From: Gammaproteobacteria bacterium
GTDB taxonomy: Bacteria > Pseudomonadota > Gammaproteobacteria > CAIRSR01
Assembly (NCBI GenBank): GCA_963575715.1
Contig: CAUYTW010000077.1
Coordinates: 1-39,081 of the forward strand
Direction: 5' to 3'
DNA length: 39,081 bases
Shown: positions 3,810-15,123 of the stretch, piece by piece
Layout of the letters: each line of letters opens with the position of its first letter
Position numbering within the stretch: the first letter of the stretch is position 1
Program-made: the position numbers and the translations under genes
Notes under the pieces: model-generated
What the model was told of the DNA's origin: nothing
Seen by the model: only the letters and a program-made list of their open reading frames with translations
The model's database searches: none

Positions 3810-6749
3810 ATGATCCTCAAGAATTTTTTCACGCCTCGCTGGTGGCGCGCTGCTCCTAAAATCCGTGATCAAGCCTTAGAAGATGTTGCTAATGACCACG
3901 AACTATTGCTTCGGATGACGAACCGTACCGCTACTCCGGAGTTACGAATCCTGTCCATCGAACGGATTACTGATCTCGTCACACTAGATGGCATGGCGCG
4001 CACCGACACTGATCCGCAGGTTCGGGAGCGTGCGCTTGGCCGTTTACAGGACGTGTTAAGCGGTACCGTTGATGGACCTTCCCTGGCGGAACGCCTTGTC
4101 TGGATTAAAGAAGTATCTGATCCTGTCCTGCTTGCTCATCTTGCCGGCCACGGGGTGGAATCAAGCCTGCGTAGTGCTGTCCTTGAGCGCATTGACGAAG
4201 ATGAAGTGCTTGCTGCATCAGCGGTTGCGGACCTAGACGCCCGTGTGCGAGCACTGGCGGCCTTCCGATTGCAGGATCGTACTCTCTTGGAAAGAGTCGC
4301 CAAGCTGGCGCGCAATCGTGACAAGAGAGTGTACCGCGTGGCTCAAGAGCGATTGGCTACGATTATCGAAGAGGAAGAACGGCCGCGTCGGCAACGCCTA
4401 ATCCGCATGGAATTTTGTGCGGATGCTGAGGCATTGGCGCGGCGTGGTCACTGGCGTGACGCCACCACTCCCTTGGAGCGTCTAGAGGATCGCTGGGCCA
4501 CCGCCGAGGGCGTGGCAGATCCCGATCTGGCCGAGCGTTTTGCGGCAGCGGTGGCAATCATTCGGCGTGGTTTGGCGGAAGAAGGACAACGTCAACGCGA
4601 ACAGACCCGCGCCGAGGAAAGCGTTGCCACACTGCGCGCTGAAAAAAAATCCCTTTGCATGGCGCTGGAGAACCTGGCCGCAGATTTGGCGGGCCGTATT
4701 CGACTTGAATCCGAAGACATCGCTATGGCGCGGAGCCTACTCCGCACGATTGAAAATGGCTGGACCCAGGGAGGCAAATTGCCACCTGCGGAGGACTCTC
4801 AGTTCAATGCCCGTTTCCAGGCGGCGCGGAGCCTGATTGATGTTCATTTTGGTGACTTGCTACGCCATGCCGAACAGCTCGCCGCCGCTGTTACCCAATG
4901 CGAGCGTATTGAACAATTATTGGTGATGAAACAAGCAGTGGAGGAAAGTACGCTTGATAAATGGAATCGGGAGTGGCAAGCGTTAGGGATAAACAGCGAC
5001 AGTGGCGAATTTGAAGAAAAAGCACTGACGCACAGATTCCAGGAAGTCATGCGCCAGCTACGCGAGCTGGGCCGCATTGAACATGAACGTCGTGAACATT
5101 GCCACACCCAAGCTACGGCGTTGCTGATAGAGCTAGAACAAGCTTTAGAAGAGGGAAAACTAAAGGTTGCCACGGGTATCTTGACCAATGCTCAAACGGC
5201 CATTGAAGGGATGGTGGCTGACGTGCGTGCTGCGGCGTTAAAACCACGCCTTGAAAAATGTGCTACCACTGTTCGTCAACTACAAGAGTGGCAACGCTGG
5301 GCTAATGCCCGTGAATATGATCGATTATGCACCGAAATGGAAGCCCTGGTAGGCATTGAGGAAACGCCAGAGCGGCTGGCGGTCCGGATCCGCGAAATGC
5401 GCGATGCCTGGAATCACTTGGGGCCACCAGAACGTGAAGCCGCCAGCCTAGAAGGGCGCTTCAACTCTGCTTGTGAGGCCGCTTTTGAGCCATGCCGGAT
5501 CCATTTCGCGGAGCAGGCCCGTCAGCGCGAAAAGGCTGCCAAGGTTCGTGAGGTGTTGATTGCCCGAGTTGAGGCATTTACCACCAATGTGGATTGGACG
5601 ACCATGGACTGGAAAGCTACCGACAACTTCCTGCAAGAAATGCGTGCTGCCTGGCGCGATGCTGGATTGGTGGATCGACGGGCAGCGGACCTTTTCCAGG
5701 AACGATTCAGAATCGCTCTGGAGCCAATTGAGCAACGAGTGCGTCAGGAACATCGACGTAACCTCAAGGCTAAGGAAGCTTTGATTGCACGCGCCGAAGC
5801 GGTGCGCAACGAGCAGGATCTACGACTGGCTGCCAACGAGATCAAACGAATTCAATCCGAATGGAAGACTCTTGGGCATGTTCCGCGTCACAAGGAACAA
5901 GCACTGTGGCACAGGTTGCGTGTGGCTGCCGACGATGTCTTCAAGCGTCGTCGCGCTCTGGTGATGGCCCAGGAAACCGAACGCAACGCTGCGCGTGTTG
6001 CGCGGGAAGAACTGTGCGAACAGATCGAATCGCTAACACGGCGGATTAACATCGAAGCGGCCGCGTTCGCAGACGAATTTACCGCCCTTGAGCAGCAATG
6101 GACAACTCTTCCCGTCGCGGCGCGGGATGACGCCAATTTTCTGGACAATCGTTTTAGAAAAGCGGTTACCACCTACCATGAAGCAGTCGTAGCTCTGGGT
6201 CATCAACAGGCCCACGATGCGATGGCAACTTTGGTGGCCCGAGGCGCGCTATGCGCGGAACTAGAGGCGCTAATCGAAACCGGCGATGGCGACCTACAAA
6301 CAATGGTGGAAGCAGCGCGTGTGCGCTGGAATACCTTGGGCAAAGACGACTCCGCCCTGATGAATCGTTTTGAGCGGGCTTGCAGTCGGGCTGAACTCCC
6401 GCAGGATCAACGTCGGCTACCATTGCGCCTTGATCCGCAAGCACTGGAGGCACTAGAGATGATTTGCATCCGTCTGGAAATTTTCACTGGCGTGGAATCT
6501 CCTCCGGAGTCGGCGCGGGCGCGTCTTGCTCATCAAGTGAATCGTCTTGCCAAGGGTTTGGGTCAAGGCACGGAGATTGGCAACCAGGAGCAACGTCGGA
6601 TGCAACTCATGGAACTGTTACGCACCTGGTACGCCAACGGTCCACTACCCATCGAGCTGCGTGCTGTTTTTGATGCACGCTTAAGCCGGATATTGACAGC
6701 GGCTTTTCAAGAATTGACAACCCATAATAATTCGAGTTTTGAAAGATAA
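3810..6749 (+). CDS. DUF349 multi-repeat coiled-coil protein (979 aa)
   Basis: A large, charged, mostly alpha-helical protein without signal peptide or membrane segments. The first 200 residues look like HEAT-type repeats (LAxxDLDARVRALAAFRL, VYRVAQERL). Several DUF349 units follow, each with a W-x(4-6)-LG motif and a downstream RF-x-A: WNREWQALG near 385, MRDAWNHLGPPE near 530, MRAAWRDAG near 610, IQSEWKTLGHVP near 675 and LEQQWTTLP near 755. DUF349 proteins are widespread in proteobacteria but their role is not established. The start ATG 3810 has a poor Shine-Dalgarno. The next gene begins 5 nt after its stop, so the two are probably cotranscribed. Confidence 0.85.
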   Translation: MILKNFFTPRWWRAAPKIRDQALEDVANDHELLLRMTNRTATPELRILSIERITDLVTLDGMARTDTDPQVRERALGRLQDVLSGTVDGPSLAERLVWIKEVSDPVLLAHLAGHGVESSLRSAVLERIDEDEVLAASAVADLDARVRALAAFRLQDRTLLERVAKLARNRDKRVYRVAQERLATIIEEEERPRRQRLIRMEFCADAEALARRGHWRDATTPLERLEDRWATAEGVADPDLAERFAAAVAIIRRGLAEEGQRQREQTRAEESVATLRAEKKSLCMALENLAADLAGRIRLESEDIAMARSLLRTIENGWTQGGKLPPAEDSQFNARFQAARSLIDVHFGDLLRHAEQLAAAVTQCERIEQLLVMKQAVEESTLDKWNREWQALGINSDSGEFEEKALTHRFQEVMRQLRELGRIEHERREHCHTQATALLIELEQALEEGKLKVATGILTNAQTAIEGMVADVRAAALKPRLEKCATTVRQLQEWQRWANAREYDRLCTEMEALVGIEETPERLAVRIREMRDAWNHLGPPEREAASLEGRFNSACEAAFEPCRIHFAEQARQREKAAKVREVLIARVEAFTTNVDWTTMDWKATDNFLQEMRAAWRDAGLVDRRAADLFQERFRIALEPIEQRVRQEHRRNLKAKEALIARAEAVRNEQDLRLAANEIKRIQSEWKTLGHVPRHKEQALWHRLRVAADDVFKRRRALVMAQETERNAARVAREELCEQIESLTRRINIEAAAFADEFTALEQQWTTLPVAARDDANFLDNRFRKAVTTYHEAVVALGHQQAHDAMATLVARGALCAELEALIETGDGDLQTMVEAARVRWNTLGKDDSALMNRFERACSRAELPQDQRRLPLRLDPQALEALEMICIRLEIFTGVESPPESARARLAHQVNRLAKGLGQGTEIGNQEQRRMQLMELLRTWYANGPLPIELRAVFDARLSRILTAAFQELTTHNNSSFER

Positions 6750-6753
6750 CTTC

Positions 6754-8022
6754 ATGCTCAACTTTTTATTTAACGGATCGCGTCCGTTCTTCGCAAATCA
6801 GCACGAAACATGGAGCGAGAAGTGGAAATGGGTTTTTTGGATCACGTTATTTTTTCTGTTTCAATGGCCGGCAGTTGCCGAAAATTTAAACTTGCAAGGT
6901 TTTGGCACTATTGGCCTGGCCCGTTCCACTACGGATAAAGCGGAATTTGTGCGTGATTTATCGCAGCCGGATGGAATCAGCGATGAGTGGTCACCAAAAA
7001 TTGATTCACTGCTGGGGATCCAAGTCAGTTTTCAGGCGACTCCATTGATTGACGCAGTCACTCAAATCGTTAGTCGCCATCATTCCGATGGTACTCATCA
7101 CCCAGAATTAATGTGGGGTTTTATTCGCTACGATCCAAACGCCAATCTGAATTTTCGGTTGGGCCGTCTTGGTAGCGAATTCTATATGCTGTCCGATTCC
7201 CGGTTGGTTGGTTATTCCTATGTTACGGTTCGTCCTTCCAACGATTATTTTGGCGGCTTGCCATTTTCCTATGTAGACGGCGTGGATGCCTTGATTACCT
7301 TGCCATTAGGCAATGGATTGGCTCGGGGAAAAATGATGTCAGGATGGACTCGTGAAGAGGTACCATCAGGAGATTTTCAATTCAATCTCGATAAGTCATT
7401 ATTGTTAGGCGGATACCTGGATTATCAGACCGGATCCTGGCAATGGCGAGTCGGCTACTCACAGCTCCGTTTCCACAACGAAATACCCGCCCTGCCGCTC
7501 CTGGAAGCATTAAAGAATACCGGACTTCCCTCGGCGCAAACAGCAGCGGAAAATTTTTCAGTAGTCGGAAAACTCGTGAAATATTATTCATTCGGAGTAG
7601 TTTATGATCAAGGAGCGTTTAATACACAAATAATGTTGAGTCGAACCAGCTATCAAAGTGCGTTTTTTGAAAATTCCAGTGCAGGTTATCTGCTAGGAAG
7701 TTACCGCATTGGTTTATTCATTCCCTTCATGGGATTGTCATGGACCAAATCTGCACCAAAATTAGCCGTCACTGGACTGCCATCAATTTATCCATTGACA
7801 TTGATTGATAACGCGCTAGCCACCGGTATGCGTGATTCTCATAGTGATCAAAAAACTTTTACTGTTGGTACCCGCTGGGATTTCCATCACAACATGGCGC
7901 TCAAGGCTCAGTGGGATGTAATTCACGGCAAGCCTGATTCGATATTTCCATATCGCTGGGAAGTTCCGGGCTGGTCTGGACGAATGAATGTTTTTAGTTT
8001 TACTCTGGATTTTATATTTTAG
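6754..8022 (+). CDS. Predicted outer-membrane beta-barrel protein
   Basis: About 422 residues. A long N-terminal leader holds a hydrophobic stretch (residues 25-37, WVFWITLFFLFQWP) ending at a likely cleavage after AVAE. Mature repeats of alternating hydrophobic/aromatic strands follow (FRLGRLGSEF, WQWRVGYSQLRF, MALKAQWDVIHG), and the chain ends in phenylalanine (SFTLDFIF), the usual signature of BAM-inserted barrels. The start of the mature part, LNLQGFGTIGLA, resembles porin-like barrels. The substrate is unknown. A TTG at 6739 would overlap the DUF349 gene. The PstS-like gene follows after 13 nt, so the pair probably works at the envelope together; a link to anion uptake is inference. Confidence 0.7.
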   Translation: MLNFLFNGSRPFFANQHETWSEKWKWVFWITLFFLFQWPAVAENLNLQGFGTIGLARSTTDKAEFVRDLSQPDGISDEWSPKIDSLLGIQVSFQATPLIDAVTQIVSRHHSDGTHHPELMWGFIRYDPNANLNFRLGRLGSEFYMLSDSRLVGYSYVTVRPSNDYFGGLPFSYVDGVDALITLPLGNGLARGKMMSGWTREEVPSGDFQFNLDKSLLLGGYLDYQTGSWQWRVGYSQLRFHNEIPALPLLEALKNTGLPSAQTAAENFSVVGKLVKYYSFGVVYDQGAFNTQIMLSRTSYQSAFFENSSAGYLLGSYRIGLFIPFMGLSWTKSAPKLAVTGLPSIYPLTLIDNALATGMRDSHSDQKTFTVGTRWDFHHNMALKAQWDVIHGKPDSIFPYRWEVPGWSGRMNVFSFTLDFIF

Positions 8023-8035
8023 GAGGGATCATGTC

Positions 8036-8467
8036 ATGAAATTTTTTTTTCCAGTCATCATCCTTTCTTGCTTTGTATCGATTGGTTATACACCCGTTTA
8101 TGCGGAAGGAAAAATTGTTGTTGTGATCAATTCTAAAAACGACATTAATAGTTTAACTCGAGACGAGGTAATCAACATTTTTTTGGGACGCTATCGACAA
8201 TTTCCTTCTGGGATGATTGCGCAACCTATCGATCAGGAGGATCAAAATAAGAAATCCCTGTTTTATAAAAAATTAGTGGGTAAGGAATTATCAGAGATCA
8301 ATAGCTATTGGGCACGGCTTGTTTTCTCAGGAAAGACCAGGCCACCTCGACAAGCCCGTGATATTGATGAATTGCTTGTTTTGGTTAATACCCTCCCTGG
8401 TGCTGTAGCTTACGTTGAGATGGATGAAATTAACGCCAATGTCAAAGTCGCCTTTACACTATATTGA
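8036..8467 (+). CDS. PstS-like periplasmic substrate-binding protein (short form)
   Basis: 143 residues with a signal peptide (hydrophobic residues 3-20, cleavage near VYAEG). The mature part IVVVINSKND...LTRDEVINIFLGR...PSG is the pattern of short phosphate-binding-protein-like domains, which hold only one lobe of a PstS fold. FYKKLVGK, YWARLVFSGK and GAVAYVEMDE near the end also fit. The Shine-Dalgarno AGGAGGG (8021-8027) overlaps the stop of the barrel gene and stands 8 nt before ATG 8036, showing translational coupling. No permease or ATPase genes are nearby, so it is unlikely to be a complete transporter; sensing or binding with the barrel protein is inference. Confidence 0.7.
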   Translation: MKFFFPVIILSCFVSIGYTPVYAEGKIVVVINSKNDINSLTRDEVINIFLGRYRQFPSGMIAQPIDQEDQNKKSLFYKKLVGKELSEINSYWARLVFSGKTRPPRQARDIDELLVLVNTLPGAVAYVEMDEINANVKVAFTLY

Positions 8468-11118: not shown

Positions 11119-11535
11119 ATGAAAAATCAATTTATTTGGCCGGTTCGCATCTATTACGAAGATACAGATGCCGTTGGTGTAGTTTACTATACCAATTACT
11201 TGAAATTCATGGAGCGTGCCCGTACTGAATGGCTGCGTGCCCTGGGTTTTGAACAAGATATCTTACGGCATGAAACCGGCATAATATTCGTGGTGCGTTC
11301 GGTAACCGTGGATTATCTGCGCCCGGCGCGTTTTAACGATCTGCTAGAGGTTGTTTCTTGCGTGGAAGAACTACATCGCGTAAGTTTAATCTTCTCCCAA
11401 AATATTCGCTATTCACAAGCAAACGATCAAATCCTGTGCATGGGAAAAGTTAAGGTGGCCTGTCTGGACGCCACCACCCTGCGCCCTCGCCCCTTACCCG
11501 TAACCCTTATCACGGAGATTCGCAGTGTCGACTGA
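11119..11535 (+). CDS. ybgC: Tol-Pal system acyl-CoA thioesterase YbgC
   Basis: A 138-residue hot-dog-fold thioesterase. The YEDTDAVGVVYYTNYLKFMERARTEWLR stretch (residues 14-41) holds the catalytic Asp of the 4-hydroxybenzoyl-CoA thioesterase type, and VDYLRPARFNDLLEV follows. It is the first gene of the Tol-Pal operon in most gammaproteobacteria, where it hydrolyses acyl-CoA or acyl-ACP at the inner membrane. Its stop lies inside tolQ (11-nt overlap), which implies translational coupling. The AT-rich 147-bp gap after priA should hold the operon promoter, but I see no convincing -35/-10 pair. Confidence 0.93.
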   Translation: MKNQFIWPVRIYYEDTDAVGVVYYTNYLKFMERARTEWLRALGFEQDILRHETGIIFVVRSVTVDYLRPARFNDLLEVVSCVEELHRVSLIFSQNIRYSQANDQILCMGKVKVACLDATTLRPRPLPVTLITEIRSVD

Positions 11536-12199
11536 TCTTTCCATCCTGAGCTTGGTACTCAATGCCAGCCTTGTCGTGCAGCTTGTCATGGGGTTATTAG
11601 TCGGTGTATCGCTAGTATCGTGGACCATGATTTTTACCAAGAGCATGGCCTTGTCACGGGCGCGTAAGGCAGCGGATAAATTCGAGCAACGGTTCTGGTC
11701 GGGTACGGAATTAACCGCACTCTATGGTCAGATTACCGCACGTAAATATGTAACAAGCGGCATGGAAAGTATCTTTGAGGCGGGTTTCAGGGAATTCGCG
11801 CGCCTACGTAAACAACCCAATATTCAACCCATGGCGGTGCTGGAAGGGGCACAACGCGCCATGCGGGTCGCTCTTTCGCGGGAAATCGATGATCTAGAGT
11901 TGAATCTATCGTTTCTAGCCAGCGTTGGTTCGACAAGCCCATATATTGGACTGTTTGGCACGGTCTGGGGCATTATGAATTCCTTCCGCGCTTTGGGAAA
12001 TGTGCATCAGGCAACACTTTCCCAAGTAGCTCCGGGAATTGCCGAGGCGTTGGTTGCTACTGCGATGGGATTATTCGCTGCTATCCCGGCGGTGGTTGCA
12101 TATAATCATTATTCCAATATTTCCGAACGACTTATTAATCGTTATGATACTTTCCTTGAGGAATTTTCCACCATACTTCAACGACAAGCGCATGTCTGA
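11525..12199 (+). CDS. tolQ: Tol-Pal system protein TolQ (proton channel subunit)
   Basis: TolQ forms with TolR the proton-driven motor that energises TolA for outer-membrane constriction at division. 224 residues with three membrane segments: about 12-35, 130-155 (SVGSTSPYIGLFGTVWGIMNSF) and 165-190 (GIAEALVATAMGLFAAIPAVVAYN), the standard MotA/TolQ/ExbB layout. The start is GTG 11525, inside the end of ybgC. In other genomes tolR follows at once; here a foreign-looking gene lies between them, separating the two motor subunits by almost 2.5 kb. Confidence 0.96.
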   Translation: MSTDLSILSLVLNASLVVQLVMGLLVGVSLVSWTMIFTKSMALSRARKAADKFEQRFWSGTELTALYGQITARKYVTSGMESIFEAGFREFARLRKQPNIQPMAVLEGAQRAMRVALSREIDDLELNLSFLASVGSTSPYIGLFGTVWGIMNSFRALGNVHQATLSQVAPGIAEALVATAMGLFAAIPAVVAYNHYSNISERLINRYDTFLEEFSTILQRQAHV

Positions 12200-12256
12200 A
12201 TATTTGTTTTTTTGACTTTTAACTTAATCCATGTGCTGGTTGCAGGAGTTATCATC

Positions 12257-14524
12257 ATGAAATCATTCATAACAAAATATTTATTAATTTTAATAATTTT
12301 TATTCCTTTCCTTTTTTTATCGTGTAATGTGAGTGCTGAAAACATCCTTGCAGGCAAAAGGGCAATCGAGATTAAAGAAGTTTATCGATATGACAATATT
12401 AATAATGGTATTTCAGTATTTAATGGTAGTGATTGGAACAGTACCGACACCGCTATTTTCAAAGACGAAAATTCATATATAATTTATGATTTAGAAAAAG
12501 AATATACTATTCAATCCGTTAAAATTCAAGGAGATAATAACGATTATTATCAAATACTCATTTCCACCAATAATAATAACGACTGGGAAATATTATTTAC
12601 CGCTAAACCTCATTCTTATAGTGGTTTACAATTTAGATCCGGACAAAATCTTAATAAATCTGGTCGGTATATTAAAATCCAGGCATATGGAGGAGATAAA
12701 CTGTACAGCATTTCAGAAATCGGTATTTTTTTAACAAATAGCGATAATGAAAGTAATATGAAAATTATCTCATCTCTTAGTAACACTATAATTATAAAAG
12801 GTAAAATGCTGTTGTTCTGTTTAGCTACAATATTGTTGCTTATTTTCACCCATAAGAATTCACCAAAATGGTGGCTTGTTTCGCTGATTACTATTTCTTT
12901 TATTGGTTTTATAAACTTATTAACATCAATTGTTGAACAATGGCCACCTGATCAGGACCAGATTTCATTTTTTAGGGCTATTATAGCTGGAATAACAGCC
13001 ATTGCGCTGATACGTATTTTTATGATGAATAAAAAATATATTGCACATAGGCTGATTATAAACTATGTGTTAGGATTTATGGCATTATTTTCTTTTCTAG
13101 CTTTCTATAACTTAGGTTACCCACAGTTTTATTATTCAGCGAAAAACAAACCAACTTATATTCATAGTTTAGATTTACGCCAATACTATCCAACCGCAAA
13201 ATATTTTGATGAAATAGGATATCATGATATTTATATTGCTGATATCGCTGCTCTTTTAGAAGATAAACCTAATATTTCTATTAAGGATTTAGAAAATATT
13301 AATATACGCAATCTCAGGACGCATCAGGTTCAAAAGGTCATTGATTTTAAGGATAATATAGCGATAATAAAAAAACGCTTCAGCCCGGAACGTTGGAATG
13401 AATATAAAAGGGATGCAGGATACATAAGGGATTTAATAGGTGAGAGGGAGTATATCAATTACATGATTGATTATGGTGGAAACGCTACTCCCGTCTGGAT
13501 AAGTCAGGCAAAAATTTTGTTCAATGCTTTTGATATCAGTGATAACAATTTAATGGCCATGGCATTAATTGATCCAATTTTATTGATAATCTTGTTTTTT
13601 CTTATTTGGCGTGTATTTGGTTTACAAACCATGTTTATATCCATGATTATTTTTGGAGCCAATGATTTTATTATGTATGGTTCAAACTGGGGTGGCGCTA
13701 TATTAAGACATGATTGGTTAGTTTATTTAGGTTATGGAATTTGTGCATTAAAAACCAAGAAATATTTTCTTGGAGGAGCGATGATAGCTTTATCTGCAAT
13801 GATCAGGGCATTTCCGATCTTCGCGCTTATAGGCGTGGGTATTATACTTTTAAGCTGGATATTTGAATATTTTATCGAAAATAAAAAATTGCCTGAAATA
13901 CATCTTATTTATAAAAATAATATAGCTATTTTTAATGTATTTTTTGGGGCAACGATAATTATTGGTATACTATTTTTCTTGTCATCACTAATTGTAGGTT
14001 TTAGTTCATGGAGTATCTGGTGGGAGAAAGTACATTTATTGCAAGATGAGCCTCATGCCAATCATTTTGGGGTAAAGTCATTAATTGCAGGTTGGGATAT
14101 CAATCAGGCTGAAATCCTTAAATCAAGAATTATTTATTATTATTCTCTTGTCATTGCATTGATTGCGCTGATAACCATTGCCATACAAAAGAAAAACATA
14201 GAAATTGCAGCTATTTTGGGGCTGCTTATCACTTGGATTTTATATTATCCACAAAATTATTACATACATTTTATAATATTTTTGCCATTGCTAATTGATA
14301 CCAGTAAAAGTCAAGCTATAGAAGAAATGTCTATTGAAAAATTATTAATTTGGTTAAGTCTTTTGCTTCTGTGCGTGTTACAGTATTATGCAGTTCCTAT
14401 TAAGGATTTAGGTCAGCATTTTTTCTTGTCAAATATATATTTATTTGGCACTGTTGTAAGCATTTTATTGGTTATGATAAAAAGTCGAGAAAATTTATTA
14501 ATGGATAAATTAGATTCAATTTAA
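12257..14524 (+). CDS. AT-rich polytopic membrane protein with N-terminal discoidin-like domain, inserted in the tol operon
   Basis: 755 residues. A signal peptide (1-27, ending CNVSAE) is followed by a beta-rich domain (about 28-160; NGSDWNSTDTAIF, YTIQSVKIQGDNNDYYQI, GRYIKIQAYGG) that resembles an F5/8 type C carbohydrate-binding fold. About ten membrane segments then follow with a large loop (DLRQYYPTAKYFDEIGYHDI). The pattern suggests a GT-C type glycosyltransferase or a DUF2029-like protein (inference). Codon use is strongly AT-rich (AAT, ATT, TTA, AAA), unlike tolQ and tolR. ATG 12257 has CAGGAG 8 nt upstream; a TTG at 12212 is the alternative. The gene reads in the operon direction, so it may be cotranscribed. 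No terminal repeats mark its borders. Confidence 0.7.
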   Translation: MKSFITKYLLILIIFIPFLFLSCNVSAENILAGKRAIEIKEVYRYDNINNGISVFNGSDWNSTDTAIFKDENSYIIYDLEKEYTIQSVKIQGDNNDYYQILISTNNNNDWEILFTAKPHSYSGLQFRSGQNLNKSGRYIKIQAYGGDKLYSISEIGIFLTNSDNESNMKIISSLSNTIIIKGKMLLFCLATILLLIFTHKNSPKWWLVSLITISFIGFINLLTSIVEQWPPDQDQISFFRAIIAGITAIALIRIFMMNKKYIAHRLIINYVLGFMALFSFLAFYNLGYPQFYYSAKNKPTYIHSLDLRQYYPTAKYFDEIGYHDIYIADIAALLEDKPNISIKDLENINIRNLRTHQVQKVIDFKDNIAIIKKRFSPERWNEYKRDAGYIRDLIGEREYINYMIDYGGNATPVWISQAKILFNAFDISDNNLMAMALIDPILLIILFFLIWRVFGLQTMFISMIIFGANDFIMYGSNWGGAILRHDWLVYLGYGICALKTKKYFLGGAMIALSAMIRAFPIFALIGVGIILLSWIFEYFIENKKLPEIHLIYKNNIAIFNVFFGATIIIGILFFLSSLIVGFSSWSIWWEKVHLLQDEPHANHFGVKSLIAGWDINQAEILKSRIIYYYSLVIALIALITIAIQKKNIEIAAILGLLITWILYYPQNYYIHFIIFLPLLIDTSKSQAIEEMSIEKLLIWLSLLLLCVLQYYAVPIKDLGQHFFLSNIYLFGTVVSILLVMIKSRENLLMDKLDSI

Positions 14525-14691
14525 AATATGAAACGTGAGTATCAGTATAATTTTTAACCAGTTTAGTAGGTAATGTATAGTGATTTAGATCATGAGCAAA
14601 GAAAAATTAAATGCAATATAGTATATTTATCGAGTAAAATATTAAAATTATATAAAAATATTTAGCGAAAACGAATGAAAGAGATATTATA

Positions 14692-15123
14692 ATGGCCCGT
14701 CATCGCTCACGTAAACGTCCTATGTCTCAAATCAATGTCGTGCCGTATATCGACGTAATGCTCGTAATGTTGGTTATTTTCATGATCACTGCGCCGATGC
14801 TCACTGAAGGTGTGCGTGTGAATCTACCGAGTGCTGCTAAATCCGAGCCAGTGGATACGCAAAATAAGGATCCGTTGGTGGTGACAGTAGATCGGGATGG
14901 ACACTATTTCATGGGAAATGAAAAAAATTTGGTAACCAACGAGGAGTTACTGTCCAAAACAGCAGCGATTCTGCGTCATGACTCAAATACGCAAGTATTA
15001 GTGAAAGGAGATCGAAACGTGGATTATGGCGCTATTGTCAACCTTATGGGATTGTTACGTCAGGCGGGCGCTCCCACGGTGGGTCTCATTACTGATCAAT
15101 CTGGTTCTTCTTTCCGAAAGTAA
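14692..15123 (+). CDS. tolR: Tol-Pal system protein TolR
   Basis: 143 residues: a short basic cytoplasmic N-terminus ending MSQINVVPYIDVMLVMLVIFMI (membrane helix about 14-36, with the essential proton-carrying Asp in PYIDVML), then the periplasmic ExbD/TolR domain (DPLVVTVDRDGHYFMG, VLVKGDRNVDYGAIVNLMGLLRQAG). It is the partner of TolQ in the motor. The start ATG 14692 has GAAAGAG upstream. The 167 bp before it are very AT-rich and belong to the inserted tract; they could hold a new promoter, but none stands out. Confidence 0.96.
   Translation: MARHRSRKRPMSQINVVPYIDVMLVMLVIFMITAPMLTEGVRVNLPSAAKSEPVDTQNKDPLVVTVDRDGHYFMGNEKNLVTNEELLSKTAAILRHDSNTQVLVKGDRNVDYGAIVNLMGLLRQAGAPTVGLITDQSGSSFRK

Follow-up and report, generated by a model that had tools for sequence, protein, structure and literature searches.

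The window analysed here, 39,081 nucleotides in length, is an entire contig (C77) of the host genome (G000), a 3.70-Mb draft of 363 contigs with a completeness of 99.4% and a contamination of 0.8%. Along the window lie, in this order, priA, a ybgC-like thioesterase gene, tolQ, an inserted gene (hereafter the insert), tolR, tolA, tolB, pal and cpoB, the last three assigned from their translations. TolQ and TolR form one cell-division motor complex and their genes are normally adjacent. In the window both host genes are intact: tolQ (11525..12199, + strand; 224 aa; Pfam MotA_ExbB PF01618, 2e-39) lies upstream of the insert and tolR (14692..15123, + strand; 143 aa; Pfam ExbD PF02472, 4e-27) downstream, with products 90% and 74% identical, respectively, to TolQ and TolR of another species of the genus (G001). 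The insert (12257..14524, + strand; 755 aa), placed by its ORF, structure and fold searches and a family alignment as a predicted GT-C membrane glycosyltransferase with a discoidin/CBM32-like N-terminus, is the sole ORF between them, is itself intact, runs on the same strand as both and is present in a single copy in its genome. We took its start to be the ATG at 12257, which has an AGGAG just 5' of it in the 57-bp spacer that follows tolQ (12200..12256, + strand; 32% GC); the mechanical ORF list begins at a TTG at 12212. A second spacer of 167 bp (14525..14691, + strand; 22% GC) separates the insert from tolR. The presence of an intact gene between a complete tolQ and a complete tolR is confirmed. 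Apart from this foreign gene, which splits tolQ from tolR, the window keeps the order described for the Proteobacterial tol-pal operon, ybgC-tolQ-tolR-tolA-tolB-pal-cpoB (PMC7391070), and because the tol gene order is reported to be highly conserved (PMC7391070; PMC12204202), the insertion is unusual.

Quantification of base composition supported the original prediction of an AT-rich gene here in the direction of the operon: the GC content of the insert was 0.300 vs 0.487 ± 0.065 for sampled host ORFs (n = 153 ORFs of ≥200 aa, from a 331-kb sample of G000), the second lowest value among the 153. GC3 was less extreme (0.261 vs 0.471 ± 0.111; z = -1.9), and the codon-adaptation comparison, which had also been proposed, set the gene apart only mildly (0.778 against the genome table vs 0.796 ± 0.023; 29/153 ORFs equally low). 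A search of both insert flanks for a remnant of the relatives' tolQ-tolR spacer found none above shuffled controls. Since the downstream spacer (14525-14691) has 22% GC and lacks likeness to the spacers of relatives, it probably belongs to the acquired DNA. Composition shifts at both edges of the insert, and in a draft of 363 contigs such shifts could stem from a foreign stretch having been joined into the tol contig during assembly. This would need two false joins, both falling in the short tolQ-tolR spacer with neither gene touched, in a genome of the completeness and contamination given above and in a contig whose flanking tol genes keep the order of relatives, and we regard it as highly improbable. 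Other AT-richer DNA was also seen: within the window, two overlapping genes at 6739-8467 (about 41-48% GC) encode a 427-aa protein without a Pfam match and a short phosphate-binding-like protein, and elsewhere in the host genome a low-GC stretch (L142, 7324-9973 of G000:C350; 0.33-0.39) carries a LAGLIDADG/intein-like gene adjoining a PAS-domain gene.

Next, we compared the tolQ-tolR site across relatives. The insert was absent from this locus in each of 29 other genomes in which tolQ and tolR were both read, with gaps between the two genes of -23 to 100 bp (n = 29; nearly all different genera, covering part of the Proteobacteria, and uniqueness of the insertion is not claimed); the gap was 100 bp in G001 and 62 bp in a member of the same family (G002). 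Because the site is empty in the relatives read, the same-genus and same-family species included, the gene was inserted in this lineage. The insertion is clean and adds a single gene between two whose products form one motor and whose order was kept in every relative read. A homologue was present in only one of 56 relatives, G001, at another locus and with 26% identity overall; none was found in G002 or G003. The G001 gene adjoins folK/pcnB and a cas3 gene, and in this region (L036, 1218-7085 of G001:C216) the homologue and the cas3 gene, of type I-F, are arranged tail to tail. Examination of repeats (including target duplication and mobile-element ends) and tRNAs, together with an Rfam search, gave no integration signature.

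A scan of genome contigs with the single protein gave no matches, and it was a two-row alignment query that opened the family. Homologues were present in 79/237 sampled Myxococcota genomes, about a third (E ≤ 1e-30), in 8/46 genomes of a Bdellovibrionales set, and in only 4/369 genomes of the window's class, Gammaproteobacteria (E ≤ 1e-5). The best match of the insert was in a Polyangiaceae metagenome-assembled genome, with 39% identity across nearly the full length. In the tree, the insert groups with the Polyangiaceae homologue L044 (support 100/94) and is nested inside a myxococcal clade with successive supports of 100/94, 98/92, 96/93 and 100/100, a position whose exact branch is to be read with caution given the unusual residue make-up of the insert. 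The G001 homologue falls in a different clade. The presence of a family member in the same genus might be taken to mean that the gene is ancestral and that relatives lost it from their tol loci; grouping of the insert with the G001 protein was rejected (p-AU 1.7e-54), and with it a single shared origin of the two genes as judged from the tree, while G002 and G003 have no homologue and the composition of the insert is foreign, making an ancestral gene extremely unlikely. The empty site, the scattered distribution of the family and the tree placement make horizontal acquisition in this lineage well supported, in agreement with the original prediction of a foreign gene in the operon. The myxococcal homologue genes nearly all have 62-75% GC vs 30% for the insert, which points to an AT-rich bacterium outside the sampled genomes as the probable immediate donor. 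Neither the protein nor the family matched anything in searches of plasmids, phages and viral contigs. Among viral structures, the resemblance was mainly to the discoidin domain, so no vector was identified.

We then examined the architecture of the encoded protein. Its first 23 codons (12257..12325, + strand) specify a signal peptide, predicted to be of the lipoprotein type, whose lipobox-like FLFLSC ends at Cys23 (PS51257-like pattern); a similar lipobox occurs in several close relatives (L044, L110-L112) and not in L045. Residues ~29-158 (12341..12730, + strand) correspond to an F5/8 type C (CBM32-like) beta-sandwich, which matched PF00754 at 2.4e-5 with 24.9 bits, below the Pfam cut-off of 28.2, and, in a Foldseek search with the full model, many CBM32/CBM47 structures (prob 1.00; TMt about 0.6-0.75). 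The remainder, residues ~176-755 (12782..14521, + strand), forms the membrane domain. AlphaFold2 modelled the full protein from a 31-row alignment with a pLDDT of 89.9 and a pTM of 0.86, and the membrane domain alone with 90.1 and 0.91; the model has roughly 13 long membrane helices. Thus, the signal peptide and discoidin-like domain described in the original prediction held, whereas its count of about ten helices did not. Its proposed resemblance to GT-C enzymes was reproduced by structure comparison: the first nine Foldseek matches of the membrane domain were all of GT-C fold, among them PimE, PIG-U, GPI mannosyltransferase I, ArnT, ALG6 and ALG12, and despite weak E-values (0.02-0.6 for these nine, 0.02-1 overall) the consistency of this list is unlike chance; ALG9 was matched as well. 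The weak E-values and the presence of PIG-U, a member of the fold that is not known as a glycosyltransferase, speak against the assignment. At the level of Pfam the insert did not match GT87 (PF09594), a model matched by 2/31 family members (best 9.7e-4), and the family as a whole has no Pfam or NCBIfam model at cut-off. The insertion also reveals a GT-C family, common in Myxococcota and lacking such a model, that has a discoidin domain at the N-terminus.

The top match of the membrane part, with a probability of 1.00 and a TMt of 0.55, was PimE (PDB 9dm7), the mycobacterial polyprenyl-phosphomannose mannosyltransferase of GT-C type. Identity over the match is 10%, and the insert differs from PimE in having an additional N-terminal CBM-like domain. 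Both proteins have a D-x3-Y motif in the first large loop (PMC12041525), which in the insert is D306-x3-Y310 (13172..13186, + strand), a candidate catalytic Asp and its Tyr partner within that loop, which would be periplasmic, identified from the homologue alignment and the PimE spacing. Altering either D58 or Y62, the catalytic residues of PimE, abolishes its activity (PMC12041525); the equivalence of D306 with D58 rests on motif spacing, not superposition. Position 306 is Asp in 29/31 homologues and Y310 is invariant in the family alignment, and in the model D306 lies in the loop that follows the first block of helices. Invariant or nearly invariant positions comprise D306, Y310, Y311, K315, Y316, E319, D386, D405, N409, D439, R517, Y668 and Y669, and the insert carries all 18 family-invariant residues. 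On the model, the best reading of the insert is a periplasm-facing glycosyltransferase dependent on a polyprenyl-phosphate-sugar, a membrane enzyme that probably attaches sugars to molecules of the envelope. The pairing of a GT-C enzyme with carbohydrate-binding modules has precedents in EmbA/B/C, AftD and ORF12 (GT136; PMC11127046); the insert resembles these in its combination of GT-C and CBM, and differs from ORF12 in that its CBM is N-terminal, not C-terminal. No Pfam, NCBIfam or PDB sequence match indicated kinship of the insert to Emb, Aft or GT136. The N-terminal domain shares the beta-sandwich of CBM32/F5/8 type C structures (e.g., 7d29 and 4a42; profile match to 4a42, E = 0.0014), and its sugar binding is putative.

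To return to the operon, terminator-like sites were absent from both spacers, with in-gene matches at chance level only, and a weak promoter-like site in the insert-tolR spacer (14554-14581) did not rise above chance. Given spacers free of terminator-like sites and a ribosome-binding site belonging to the insert itself, transcription could plausibly run through from tolQ into tolR, and the insert is predicted to be co-transcribed with both genes. The original prediction had also raised the idea that the enzyme acts on surface glycans where the cell divides. On such a reading, an imported CBM-GT-C enzyme kept between tolQ and tolR would couple periplasmic glycan modification to the TolQR motor at septation. 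The position and orientation of the insert fit such a role, and an exbB-exbD-tonB cluster lies about 1 kb downstream of the closest homologue, on the opposite strand (L044, 9488-11342; Polyangiaceae). No TolQ- or TolR-like gene was found near any other locus of the family scan, for which reason this cluster was dropped as a functional hint. The G001 homologue sits by folK/pcnB and cas3, and the neighbourhoods of close relatives share genes only between near-relative pairs, or share common signalling genes, with no conserved neighbours or theme found around the homologues. The position alone ties the enzyme to the Tol motor; with homologues lying outside tol operons, we did not retain work at the division site, and consider partnership with the motor very unlikely. 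As a separate observation, the host genome has a second TolR/ExbD-like gene with an adjoining TolQ/ExbB-like gene (L038, 4604-5388 of G000:C300), a distinct motor pair.

The explanation that we favour, and consider probable, is that a structurally intact GT-C glycosyltransferase gene was acquired horizontally and is tolerated where it landed in the tol operon, without the enzyme being functionally tied to the motor. It might instead be a neutral passenger that entered by illegitimate recombination, is transcribed through its location without benefit and will decay, as the lack of mobile-element ends, target duplication or tRNA, the absence of the family from G002 and G003 and its unrelated places in other genomes would allow. 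The 755 intact codons, the 18 invariant residues together with the D306/Y310 pair, the good Shine-Dalgarno sequence and the confident fold argue against this, as does the lack of decay signs, though a recent passenger would look alike, and we judge a passenger unlikely. That one genus acquired the enzyme twice, independently, suggests a portable and useful envelope trait. For the acquired glycosyltransferase that we favour, the N-terminal domain would be exported to the periplasm, possibly lipid-anchored, and bind an acceptor glycan onto which the membrane domain would transfer sugar from a polyprenyl-phosphate-sugar, with D306 as the putative catalytic base and transcription probably shared with tolQ.

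As sugar donor, polyprenyl-P-arabinofuranose or -ribofuranose is a possibility, weakly suggested because the host genome has genes for making the former. These lie in a row (L148, 3776-8173 of G000:C308) and encode a HAD-UbiA fusion, GtrA, and DprE1-like and DprE2-like proteins, together a route to polyprenyl-P-arabinofuranose. The ORF12, EmbA/B/C and AftD enzymes use polyprenyl-P-pentofuranose. DprE1 was present in 4/4 genomes of the class that have the family vs 68/369 in the background (P = 0.001; by genus, 0.009), and G002 and G003 have neither. Four of the nine genomes holding the closest relatives were without a DprE1 match. In Myxococcota, no such link was seen at the strict threshold when the family was taken as a whole (49% vs 44%); it appeared only in the discoidin-bearing subgroup (76% vs 42%; p = 0.001), which was picked post hoc and assigned by eye. 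In G207, the homologue adjoins a UbiA phosphoribosyltransferase-like gene.
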